The notes under the pieces are model-generated. The model ran no database searches. It was not told the DNA's origin and worked only from the letters and a program-made list of their open reading frames with translations. Made by a program: the position numbers and the translations under genes. From the IMG/VR virus record IMGVR_UViG_3300045136_000426, positions 1-37,379 of that record: a DNA stretch of 37,379 nucleotides; one strand, written 5' to 3'. Below, piece by piece: positions 12,874 to 27,825 of this stretch; positions within the stretch are counted from its first letter, which is position 1; every line of letters begins with the position of its first letter. Source of the DNA: a virus.

Positions 12874-13377
12874 ATGCCCGGCATGCTGCCGGGCATGGTT
12901 GCCGACGCCATCAATGCGGCTGAGCAGCAGCTCAGCCCCCACTTTACTCTTGCCGAGATGACCGTCTCTCAGGTCGCTGCGCGTGCGGGCTTGGCGAATG
13001 TGCCGCCCTCGGCGGCGGTCGCCAACCTCAGGCGTGTCGCGAACCTGCTGGAAACGGTGCGCATCGTGCTCGGCGGCAAGCCGATCATCGTGACGAGCGG
13101 CTATCGCTCGCCGAGCGTCAACAAGCTGGTGGGCGGCGCCCCCAACTCGGCGCATTTGGACGGTCGGGCGGCCGACTTCATTTGCCCGGCGTTCGGCACA
13201 CCGCGCGAGGTGTGCCAGCAGCTCATTGACCAGGGGCTGCTGTTCGACCAGTTGATCCAGGAAGGTACCTGGGTGCACGTCGGCATGGCTCGCGCCGGCG
13301 AGACGCCGCGCCAAGAGGTGCTCACCGCACAGTTCTCGGCCGGCCGGCCGACCACTTACATCCGAGGCCTCGCGTAA
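12874..13377 (+). CDS. M15-type peptidase endolysin
   Basis: The 167-residue protein matches the peptidase M15A/M15_3 family of peptidoglycan endopeptidases. VTSGYRSPSVNKLVGG (73-88) is the typical lead-in, SAHLDGRAADF supplies zinc ligands H94 and D101, and WVHVGMA supplies H135. These enzymes cleave peptide stems or cross-links in the cell wall. No signal peptide is visible, so release needs a holin. ATG 12874 follows GAGGGGG at close distance; ATG 12883 and 12895 are alternatives. It is the first gene of the lysis block, and its stop overlaps the next start (TAATG). Confidence 0.88.
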   Translation: MPGMLPGMVADAINAAEQQLSPHFTLAEMTVSQVAARAGLANVPPSAAVANLRRVANLLETVRIVLGGKPIIVTSGYRSPSVNKLVGGAPNSAHLDGRAADFICPAFGTPREVCQQLIDQGLLFDQLIQEGTWVHVGMARAGETPRQEVLTAQFSAGRPTTYIRGLA

Positions 13378-13616
13378 TGGCGACGACTGACAATCACGCG
13401 GCAGCTGCGGGCGCCCCCAAGCCCTGGTGGAAAAGCAAGACGTTGTGGTTCAACGCCGCCTGCGCCGCGCTCGGCGTCGCCGAAGCACAGCTGCAGCTGC
13501 TCAAACCGCTGCTCGGCGACCAAGCCTATCCGATCCTTCTGTATGCGGTGATGGTCGGCAACGCGGTGCTGCGCATTGTGACGACTCAGGGTATTGCCCT
13601 TTCGGAGAAAAAATGA
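13377..13616 (+). CDS. Holin-like small membrane protein
   Basis: The 79-residue protein has a polar N-terminus, the motif PWWKSKTLWFNAACAALGVA as a first hydrophobic stretch, and YPILLYAVMVGNAVLRIVTT as a second, with a charged end. Size and place between the endolysin and the other lysis genes fit a holin. Proteins with this WWKSKT-type start are often seen next to M15 endolysins. The function is inferred from context only. Confidence 0.6.
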   Translation: MATTDNHAAAAGAPKPWWKSKTLWFNAACAALGVAEAQLQLLKPLLGDQAYPILLYAVMVGNAVLRIVTTQGIALSEKK

Positions 13617-14161
13617 AACGCAACCCCCTGCGCCTGATCGCGGCCGCCTTGGCCACGCTGCTTTTCCTGGTGACCGTCGCCGGCGCGCAAGAGCCGTCGA
13701 CCGCTGCTCCGGCGCCCAGCTTCGAGGTCGGGTTCAGTTCCAAGAGCGACCGCAGCGCCAAGCCGCTGGCCATCAAGGCGATCGACAGCGCCACGCAGCT
13801 GCTGCTGCTGGCGGCCTATCAGCTCACCGAGCCGGACATCATTCGCGCGCTGCTGCGCGCCAAGCAGCGCGGGGTGGACGTGCGCGTGGTGCTCGACAAA
13901 AGTCTCGCGAAGAAAGAGGCGCCGCAGATCATGCAGCAGGCCGGCATCAGCTGCACGATTCAGCGGCAGTACCAGATCATGCATCACAAGTTCATGGTCA
14001 TCGACAGCCTGAGCATCGAGACCGGCAGCTTCAATTACACGCGCAACGCCGATCGGAACAACGCCGAGAACGCGTTGGTCATCTGGAACGCGCCCAGCGA
14101 ACTGGTCAGCCAGTATCAGATGCAATGGCAGGCGCTGAACGAAGGCGGCACGCCATGCTGA
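13613..14161 (+). CDS. Secreted PLD-superfamily nuclease
   Basis: The 182-residue product has a signal peptide (MKRNPLRLIAAALATLLFLV, cleaved near AGA/QEP) and one HKD motif, HHKFMVID, with H124, K126 and D131, followed by GSFNYT. A single HKD with a leader is the make-up of Nuc-type periplasmic endonucleases, which act as dimers. It would degrade DNA in the periplasm or outside the cell. It sits inside the lysis block between the holin-like gene and the spanins, an uncommon place. ATG 13613 has GGAG upstream and overlaps the previous stop (ATGA). A phospholipase activity is possible but less likely at this size. Confidence 0.8.
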   Translation: MKRNPLRLIAAALATLLFLVTVAGAQEPSTAAPAPSFEVGFSSKSDRSAKPLAIKAIDSATQLLLLAAYQLTEPDIIRALLRAKQRGVDVRVVLDKSLAKKEAPQIMQQAGISCTIQRQYQIMHHKFMVIDSLSIETGSFNYTRNADRNNAENALVIWNAPSELVSQYQMQWQALNEGGTPC

Positions 14162-24988: not shown

Positions 24989-25435
24989 ATGAGCTACGCA
25001 ACCCCTACTGACCTGATCGCGCGCTTCGGCGAGCGCGAGGCCCGCGCACTCGCCGATCGGCTGGGCACCGGCGAGATCGACGAAAGCGTGCTGCAACGCG
25101 CGCTCGACGAGGCGAGCAGCGAGATGGACGGCTACCTCGGCGTGCGCTACGCACTGCCCCTGCCGACCTTGAGCCAATCGGCGACCGCCCTGGTGCGCAA
25201 CATCTGCCTGGACGTGACGCGCTATCGCCTGGTGGGCACCGAGACGATGAACACGGACGAGATCGAGAGCCGGTACAAGCTCGCGATCAAGCAGCTCGAG
25301 GCGCTGCGCGACGGCAAGCTCTTCATCGGCGACATTTCCTTGAAGCCCGCCGGCGGCGACGTGAATACCGCCGGCAACAACGCCGTGCGCGTGCGGCAAC
25401 AAGTCTTCTCCGAAAACGCCCTCGGGGGCTATTGA
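24989..25435 (+). CDS. Head completion protein (Mu gp36, DUF1320)
   Basis: The 148-residue product matches gp36/DUF1320: SYATPTDLIARFGEREARAL, LQRALDEASSEMDGYLGVRY, and LVRNICLDVTRYRLVG. It is helical and probably forms part of the head-tail connector. ATG 24989 is chosen because conserved residues begin there; the frame is open back to 24962. Its stop overlaps the next start (TGATG). Confidence 0.88.
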   Translation: MSYATPTDLIARFGEREARALADRLGTGEIDESVLQRALDEASSEMDGYLGVRYALPLPTLSQSATALVRNICLDVTRYRLVGTETMNTDEIESRYKLAIKQLEALRDGKLFIGDISLKPAGGDVNTAGNNAVRVRQQVFSENALGGY

Positions 25436-26028
25436 TGGGCACCCAAGCCATCACCGCGCCGGTGTACAAGCTCATCGAGGAGGCCATGCTCGCACAGCTG
25501 CGCGCGGCGCAGCGGCCGTACGCGGTCAAGAGCATCGAAAGCTACGCCGGCCAGCTCGACGACGACGCCTGGGAATGGCTGCGCGGCACGCCGGCCGTAT
25601 GGGTCAGCTTCGTCGGCGCACCCGAAGTGACGATGAAGGGCAGCCGCACCGTCAAGGTGAACGGCAAGTTCATGGTCGCAGCCGCGCAGCGCAACATCAA
25701 CAACAACGCCGTGGCGCGGCTCGGCGACGCAGCTGAGCCCGGTGTGTACCAGCTGCTCGAGGACAACAAGCTGGCCTTGTGGAACCAGCAACTCGGCCTG
25801 CCGATCCAGCCGTTGATGCCCGGTGCAACACGTCAGCTGTTGGTCGGCCGCACCCGCGGCGGTGAACCATTGGCCGTGTACGCCCAAGAGTTCGAGACGT
25901 GGTGGATGGAACAGCTGCCCGAGCCCGGCGCGACGCCCGACGGCGAGCTGCGCAGCATTTATCTCAACTACTTCCTGCAGCCCGACGACGCCACGCAGGA
26001 CGCACAAGACCAAGTCACGATCAGCTAA
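25435..26028 (+). CDS. Mu gp37-like tail terminator/completion protein (DUF1834)
   Basis: The 197-residue protein fits the Gp37/DUF1834 family: YKLIEEAMLAQLRAAQRPYA, VKSIESYAGQLDDD, TPAVWVSFVGAPEV, and QEFETWWMEQLPEP near the end. It is thought to act at the tail end of the neck. ATG 25435 overlaps the gp36 stop, and its TAA overlaps the next ATG (TAATG). Confidence 0.85.
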   Translation: MGTQAITAPVYKLIEEAMLAQLRAAQRPYAVKSIESYAGQLDDDAWEWLRGTPAVWVSFVGAPEVTMKGSRTVKVNGKFMVAAAQRNINNNAVARLGDAAEPGVYQLLEDNKLALWNQQLGLPIQPLMPGATRQLLVGRTRGGEPLAVYAQEFETWWMEQLPEPGATPDGELRSIYLNYFLQPDDATQDAQDQVTIS

Positions 26029-26138
26029 TGGAAAACCAGCACCGTCGCATCGCCGGCTACCGCGAGCTCAACGAGCAGGAGATGGGCCTGAACTGCAAAC
26101 CGGCTTCATGTGCGATCGCTCAGCCGATCAACTTTTAG
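26028..26138 (+). pseudogene. Decayed gene resembling the Acb2/Tad1 hairpin (DUF7681) family
   Basis: The 36-codon frame starts MENQHRRIAGYRELNEQE, which matches the opening I recall for small DUF7681/Acb2-type phage proteins (QHR.I.GYREL..eEi.LMN). It then stops matching. Twenty bases on, another frame reads ELQTGFM (26090-26110), a C-terminal motif of the same family, and the original frame then reads AIAQPINF before the stop, again family-like. The simplest reading is an internal deletion joining head to tail, plus a second small deletion. Intact members of this family sequester cyclic nucleotides and block CBASS immunity. The assignment is from memory of the family pattern. The ATG keeps a TAATG overlap with gp37. 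Confidence 0.5.
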
Positions 26139-26146
26139 AGGATGAC

Positions 26147-26344
26147 ATGGCCATCAAAGTCAAAGTCAGCGACCCGCAACTGAAGGTTCCGCGCGAGGAG
26201 AACCCTCGAACCTACATCACCGGTGCCGACGGTGTGATGGAGGTCGAGGACTCCGCGTACTACCGCCGCCGGATCATCGACGGCGAACTGATCGAGGTCG
26301 ACGGCAGGGGAAAGCCTGTATCGGCCGACGGCAGCAAGGCCTGA
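26147..26344 (+). CDS. Mu gp38-like protein (DUF2635)
   Basis: The 65-residue product has the DUF2635 pattern: IKVKVSDPQLKVPREENPRT, then YITGADGVMEVEDSAYYRRR and IIDGELIEV. It is always found just before the tail sheath gene in Mu-like phages; function unknown. ATG 26147 has GAGGA upstream, lying over the stop of the decayed gene. Confidence 0.82.
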   Translation: MAIKVKVSDPQLKVPREENPRTYITGADGVMEVEDSAYYRRRIIDGELIEVDGRGKPVSADGSKA

Positions 26345-26403: not shown

Positions 26404-27825
26404 ATGGCCAGCCCGAATATCGCGTTTGATACCATCCCCGCCAGCCTGCGCAAACCAGGCCGGTACTTCGAGTTCAACAACAAGCTCGCGGTGCGCACGC
26501 TGCCCAACAACAAGCAGCGCGTGCTGATCATCGCGCAGATGCTGGCCAGCGGCACGGCGGCGGCCAACCAGATCGTGCAGGTCTTCGATGCGGAGACAGC
26601 GGCCGCACTGTTCGGCCGCGGCAGCCAGGCGCACCGCATGGTGGCCAATGCCATCCAGGCAAATCCGTACGTCAGCCTGTTCGTCATGCCGATCGCCGAC
26701 AGCGGCACCGGCGTCGCGGCCACCGCGACCGTCACGGTCACCGGCACGGCCACGGCCAACGGCTCGGTCACGGTGACTATCGGTGATGACGACGTCGTCG
26801 TACCGGTGACCAGCGCCGATGCGCAGAACGCCATCGCCGCGAACATCAAGGCCGCGATCGATGCCTACATCAACACGCCAGTGTCGCGCAGCGTGGCGGC
26901 AAACGTGGTCACGCTCACCGCGCTGAACAAGGGCACGGTCGGCAACAACCTGCGCCTGGCCGCCACCAGCGGCGCACCGGGCGTGGCGGTGGCTGTGACC
27001 GCGTTCGCCGGTGGGCTGAACGATCCCGCGCTCACTACGCCGCTGGCCAACGCGTTCCCGAGCAGTTATGAGATCTACTGCGTGCCCTACGCCGACGCCA
27101 CATCGCTGGGCGCACTCAAGACGCACCTGAGCAACGTCAGCAATGCCATCGAGCAGCGCGGCGCGATCGGTGTGTACGCCACCGTCGGCACGCTCAGCGC
27201 GGCTACGACGCTGGCTGCAGCACTGAACAGCGAGCGCCTGACCGGCGGCTTTCTGAAGAACGGCTACACGCCGCAGGAAGAGATGGCGGCCGCCTATGCG
27301 GCGATGATCGCCTTCGAGGAAGACCCGGCTCGGCCGCTCAACACCCTGACGCTCACGGGCGTGCGGGTGCCCCTGATCAGCGACCGGCTCACGCGCACCG
27401 AACAAGAAAGCTGCCTGTACAACGGTGTGACGCCGTTCGAGTGGCAGCCGGGCGAGGTAGTCGGCATCGTACGTGCGATCACGACGTACACCGTGAACGC
27501 AGCGAGTGTGGCGGATGTGAGCTGGCTCGACCTGACCACCATCCGCACGATGGAGTACGTGCGCAAAGCCTGCCGCGAGCGCATCAGCCTGCGCTTCCCG
27601 CGCGAGAAGCTGAGCGACAAGACCGCGCAGCGCGTGCGCAGCGAACTGATCGACGTGCTGCTGAAGATCGAGGAGCTGGAGATCATTGAGAAGGTGCAGG
27701 ACAACCTGCCCGGCCTGATCGTCGAGCGCGACCTGCAGAACGTCAACCAGCTGAACGCCAAGATCCCGACCGACGTGGTCAACGGCCTGCACATCTTCGC
27801 GGGCCGTATCGATTTGTTGTTGTGA
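26404..27825 (+). CDS. Tail sheath protein (Mu gpL-like)
   Basis: The 473-residue protein matches contractile tail sheath subunits: PASLRKPGRYFEFNNKLAVR, LPNNKQRVLIIAQMLASGTA, VFDAETAAALFGRGSQAHRM, a variable central domain, and the C-terminal strand and helix region ENLPGLIVERD-like (DNLPGLIVERDLQNVNQLNA). It contracts to drive the tube through the envelope. ATG 26404 begins MASPNIAFD, the usual start. Confidence 0.94.
   Translation: MASPNIAFDTIPASLRKPGRYFEFNNKLAVRTLPNNKQRVLIIAQMLASGTAAANQIVQVFDAETAAALFGRGSQAHRMVANAIQANPYVSLFVMPIADSGTGVAATATVTVTGTATANGSVTVTIGDDDVVVPVTSADAQNAIAANIKAAIDAYINTPVSRSVAANVVTLTALNKGTVGNNLRLAATSGAPGVAVAVTAFAGGLNDPALTTPLANAFPSSYEIYCVPYADATSLGALKTHLSNVSNAIEQRGAIGVYATVGTLSAATTLAAALNSERLTGGFLKNGYTPQEEMAAAYAAMIAFEEDPARPLNTLTLTGVRVPLISDRLTRTEQESCLYNGVTPFEWQPGEVVGIVRAITTYTVNAASVADVSWLDLTTIRTMEYVRKACRERISLRFPREKLSDKTAQRVRSELIDVLLKIEELEIIEKVQDNLPGLIVERDLQNVNQLNAKIPTDVVNGLHIFAGRIDLLL

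Follow-up and report, generated by a model that had tools for sequence, protein, structure and literature searches.

The gp37-gp38 interval of a Mu-like phage

The stretch of DNA analysed here, referred to as the window, is 37,379 nucleotides long and carries the gene set of a Mu-like phage, including a MuA-type transposase, Gam, Mor, and a tail cluster with gp36, gp37, gp38, and the sheath (Table 1). A search of phage records for DNA similarity to it returned no match. Elsewhere in the window, a PLD-like domain protein (13427-14161; PF13091, E=4.1e-23) is encoded directly after an M15 peptidase gene (12874-13377).

A 118-nt interval separates the stop of gp37 from the start of gp38 and contains one open frame of 36 codons on the plus strand (26028-26138), with the translation MENQHRRIAGYRELNEQEMGLNCKPASCAIAQPINF. 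Its ATG (26028-26030) overlaps the gp37 stop codon in the sequence TAATG, such that both the start codon and the coupling to gp37 are retained, as a first-pass annotation of this DNA had noted; the frame closes with TAG at 26136-26138. No promoter or terminator was found in the interval. Three-frame translation places the head, MENQHRRIAGYREL, and the tail, AIAQPINF, in the frame of the ORF, and the motif PELQTGFM in the frame used further on by gp38, bearing out the earlier observation that ELQTGFM is present in a different frame.

Alignment to the intact, 74-codon acb2 gene of a relative (L170, described below) resolves the interval into three retained parts and two deletions whose lengths cancel in frame, with a sum of 114 nt, so that approximately 38 codons are missing relative to the L170 gene. 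Residues 20-27 of the remnant frame are out-of-frame sequence, and the exact breakpoint of the first deletion is ambiguous by some nucleotides in this alignment. The first-pass annotation had envisaged a gene that lost its middle, shifted frame, and then lost a few more codons; the deletion lengths agree with these component events, but their order, like the exact breakpoints, is not recoverable from a single sequence.

Table 1. Features of the window and of the acb2 remnant, with supporting matches
Feature	Position	Strand	Support or remark
Whole window, IMG/VR virus record of a Mu-like phage	IMGVR_UViG_3300045136_000426, positions 1-37,379		
gp37 (Phage_Mu_Gp37), upstream neighbour of the remnant	25435..26028	+	PF08873, E=2.3e-33
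acb2 remnant, 36 codons, very probable pseudogene	26028..26138	+	own Acb2 profile; alignment to L170 acb2
Retained head, codons 1-19 (MENQHRRIAGYRELNEQEM)	26028..26084	+	39/57 nt identical to L170
First deletion junction, approximate	26085..26086	+	~103 nt lost, 1 mod 3, given a 74-codon ancestor; size estimated from L170 alignment
Penultimate Acb2 motif PELQTGFM, frame differs from head	26087..26110	+	19/24 nt identical to L170 (TDLQTGLM)
Second deletion junction, approximate	26108..26111	+	~11 nt lost, 2 mod 3; tail returns to head frame; size estimated from L170 alignment
Retained tail CAIAQPINF and stop	26109..26138	+	18/30 nt identical to L170
AGAGGA, likely gp38 ribosome-binding site	26137..26142	+	read from sequence, role putative; overlaps remnant stop codon
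gp38 (DUF2635), downstream neighbour of the remnant	26147..26344	+	phrog_208, E=2.4e-11; PF10948, E=1.4e-4, below cut-off
Tail sheath gpL, query for relatives	26404..27825	+	phrog_165, E=7e-163

Relationship of the remnant to Acb2

Acb2 is a phage protein that soaks up bacterial alarm molecules, acting as a cyclic-nucleotide sponge against CBASS. The short frame had been proposed to keep the head and tail of this family, and both ends are supported. A profile built in this work from 59 intact Acb2 proteins matches the ORF with E=1.8e-6, its first 19 residues corresponding to the Acb2 N-terminus with the head pattern [DE]NQHRxIxGYR, and the head also matches phrog_29522 (E=9.4e-5). The best match among PDB entries is a solved Acb2 structure, 8h2j (E=0.0048). 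At the other end, the two tail motifs, PELQTGFM (26087-26110) and CAIAQP (26109-26126), which lie in two frames, jointly score 30.7 bits against the family’s own tail, compared with maxima of 9.5 bits for 4375 stretches from elsewhere in the window, on both strands, and 16.0 bits for 20,000 shuffles. Likewise, when the interval is aligned with gaps to the unbroken L170 gene, the score is 72.6, where shuffled sequences (n=2000) give a mean of 24.5, a standard deviation of 5.7, and a maximum of 52.

The expectation of a family match by HMM thus held for our own profile and for phrog_29522 but not for PF24729 (Acb2_Tad1_hairpin), which gave no match to the remnant, as did PADLOC. The silence of PF24729 probably reflects a model that begins only at residue 10 and depends on helices that are missing here. 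In keeping with this, the two long antiparallel helices of Acb2 do not register in the remnant as the Pfam hairpin over its curated cut-off, and the C-terminal signature LQxGxMxxxRAxAQP, in frame with the head in Acb2, is present in the DNA but split across two frames. The locus therefore holds what is expected of an acb2 pseudogene: recognisable parts of the gene in their original order, a frame-breaking loss, and an unbroken version of the gene at this locus in a related phage, albeit one that is not the window phage’s sister in the tree.

The locus had been labelled “Acb2/Tad1-type”, of which the first half stands and the second does not. Tad1 is distinguished by a beta-sheet part that precedes the hairpin (PMC12043709). 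The remnant opens directly with the Acb2 head, and its family matches in the PDB are to Acb2 only. Judged from these features, the proper name should be Acb2 and not Tad1, the hairpin alone being shared.

An intact counterpart at the same junction

A full gene had been predicted at this locus in relatives, and one was found. Among the relatives collected through the tail sheath is a Mu-like phage contig, L170 (IMGVR_UViG_3300047678_000041), in which an uninterrupted acb2 of 74 codons fits precisely between gp37 and gp38. Its product, MDNQHRKISGYSELSADEIALMNEIKAKGAELGALVEKLRAQPGLDQRWVSIGSTDLQTGLMALTRSVAQPTTF, matches PF24729 with E=7.8e-18 (64.9 bits against a cut-off of 27) and PDB entry 8h2j with E=9e-17. 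L170 is the only intact relative found at this junction; a further search for acb2 adjoining gp37 in acb2-centred locus sets returned L170 alone again. Both genes could be placed in 114 relatives (the window counted); in nearly all of these, gp37 and gp38 are less than 40 nt apart, with a gap of 30 nt or less in almost every relative other than L170, indicating that acb2 is accessory at this position. The closest DNA relative (G177/L369, among 400 genomes of the likely host family) has no gene there.

L170 was considered as a sister phage of the window and rejected, being nested in another subclade of the gp37 and sheath tree, and for this reason the two insertions cannot be taken to share an ancestor. 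Accordingly, the earlier proposal that this lineage once carried an Acb2 sponge is favoured by the alignment and by L170 itself, although descent from one common insertion does not follow. Either an old gene has often been lost or more than one insertion has occurred at the same junction, and the L170 gene may be a separate insertion.

Other relatives display further arrangements in this region. PF24729 hairpin proteins without the NQHR head are encoded after the sheath in a Variovorax locus (L093, 6419-6655) and further downstream in the tail cluster of another (L205:7408-7689); from these positions, acb2-like genes move around the Mu-like tail cluster. In some relatives, other reading frames occupy the gp37-gp38 junction (L149:4475-4741 and L207:2606-2858), where small accessory genes thus seem to insert.

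Decay of acb2 and alternative explanations

Taken as a whole, we are highly confident that the 36-codon frame is an acb2 pseudogene. In the ancestor of this Mu-like phage, a full-length, accessory acb2 (about 74 codons) would have lain between gp37 and gp38. It would then have undergone a minimum of two deletions, the larger taking the body of both long helices and the smaller falling near the end, which would have left the start, the out-of-frame penultimate motif, and the tail that are seen in the alignment. The remnant product should not bind cyclic nucleotides, because neither the helical hairpin nor the hexamer, which in Acb2 binds cyclic di- and trinucleotides, could form. Both ends of the gene probably persist as signals of its neighbours, namely the overlap of the gp37 stop with the acb2 start and the gp38 ribosome-binding site on the acb2 stop. 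Two observations count against simple decay: the second deletion restored the frame, as neutral decay would do one time in three, and the head looks little changed at conserved residues. A short peptide maintained by selection would account for both as well.

The cause of the loss was most likely relaxed selection, judging from the probable host. The window begins with an approximately 530-nt fragment (1-528) resembling the 3′ part of an hsdM-type host type I methylase (PF02384 N6_Mtase, E=2.4e-19). Because this flank shows up to 91% nucleotide identity with a genome from the family to which Polaromonas belongs, the host is probably a member of that family. Of 300 genomes from this likely host family, 28 have a CD-NTase (SMODS) over the cut-off, a figure that applies at family level only. 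CBASS-like exposure is thus patchy in this family, and relaxed selection would suffice.

Alternatively, the same pseudogene could be the outcome of selection: Panoptes, or another defence that senses sponges, would kill cells when Acb2 sequesters the decoy nucleotide of that defence, and phages that break acb2 would survive. Acb2 can indeed be a liability under Panoptes, since acb2 was the only mutated gene in 14 of 15 T4 escapers, with frameshifts and large deletions among the lesions, and T2 and PaMx41 have been cited as wild examples (PMC12657218); Pseudomonas phage FBPa48 adds a further natural deletion. However, mCpol, the Panoptes synthase domain, was over the cut-off in none of the 300 genomes of the likely host family, making this driver less likely here, although other sponge sensors may occur, and the window itself is silent on cause. 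We regard selection-driven loss as unlikely for this locus, and are similarly doubtful of its extension, in which wild phages of unrelated groups (the window phage, FBPa48, PaMx41, and T2) repeatedly purge acb2 by different lesions since sponge-sensing defences make the sponge costly. Under repeated purging, the gp37-gp38 remnant would record such pressure in a group of hosts for which no sensor of this kind was detected here.

Another explanation holds that the 36-residue frame is a working micro-protein that joins the two ends of Acb2 and might, for instance, act as a dominant-negative or a reduced ligand-binding peptide. The restored frame at the tail and the conserved head would suit such a product, and FBPa48 independently possesses a 34-aa fusion of head and tail. 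Yet residues 20-27 derive from out-of-frame sequence, no second exact copy of the remnant was found in viral contigs, a set that may lack the records closest to the window, and at least 114 complete head-bearing frames are listed there, with none shorter than 70 aa among the matches listed. A conserved 36-residue peptide, the outcome against which the first-pass annotation had staked its reading, is therefore rejected on the lengths of these listed frames.

Short forms do occur in two phage records, PaMx41 and FBPa48, each the result of a broken gene. In PaMx41, codon 37 of an otherwise complete gene is a stop, and the short product (gp24; 36 residues, the same length as the remnant) gives no CBASS protection, whereas the long form protects (PMC10419184, PMC12043709). 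The FBPa48 form (L007:1489-1605) is a plain internal deletion, 177 nt lost in frame relative to its own genus, in which the full 93 residues were read in PaP2, PaMx33, PaMx43, PaMx46, Neko, Ph_15, and 20Aug470; no mention of this loss was found in the cited Acb2 literature. A functional micro-protein is consequently very improbable. Separately, phrog_29522, a 42-position PHROG of unknown function, matches the short PaMx41 gp24 product at 95 bits and was seen with L367:302-409 and L007; it is probably composed of truncated Acb2 from broken acb2 genes.

An assembly or sequencing error in an intact gene would be compatible with the window being a single metagenome-derived record, but it is very improbable, given that some 114 nt are missing at two separate, cleanly joined places while the neighbouring genes are intact and the gene cluster is otherwise normal. 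Finally, chance resemblance in an unrelated short spacer, suggested by the silence of Pfam and PADLOC, has a negligible probability and is refuted by the joint motif test, with the own-profile match, the gapped alignment, and the unbroken L170 gene at this junction also opposing it.

Significance and comparison with known systems

Decay of acb2 at this junction is a further instance of a known event, natural losses having already been published for PaMx41 and T2. The window shows a temperate, Mu-like phage that has naturally lost its cyclic-nucleotide sponge in a way that point mutation could not reverse; a relative has the intact gene at that junction. Alongside the losses in PaMx41, T2, and FBPa48, this case speaks for ready gain and loss of acb2, as would be expected if the gene were useful against CBASS and otherwise useless or harmful. 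It also serves as a warning that short “hypothetical proteins” with an Acb2 head, such as those of phrog_29522, are likely truncated acb2 genes.

Four systems invite direct comparison. The L170 gene occupies the same gp37-gp38 junction in the same orientation, and its head, penultimate motif, and tail align in order with those of the window; unlike the remnant, which has lost about half of the gene, it is open throughout and encodes the full hairpin (PF24729). The wild-type gp24 allele of PaMx41 is likewise a natural, broken acb2 with the head kept and a match to phrog_29522, but its lesion is a single stop codon that leaves the rest of the gene intact and revertible, whereas the window allele has lost sequence that point mutation cannot restore. 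In ORF 20 of FBPa48, the middle is lost and the head is joined to the tail, much as in the window, although this unrelated podophage did so through one in-frame deletion and has no out-of-frame stretch. Finally, the T4 acb2 (vs.4) escapers from Panoptes also lost the gene by frameshift and deletion (PMC12657218), but they arose under laboratory selection with a known driver.
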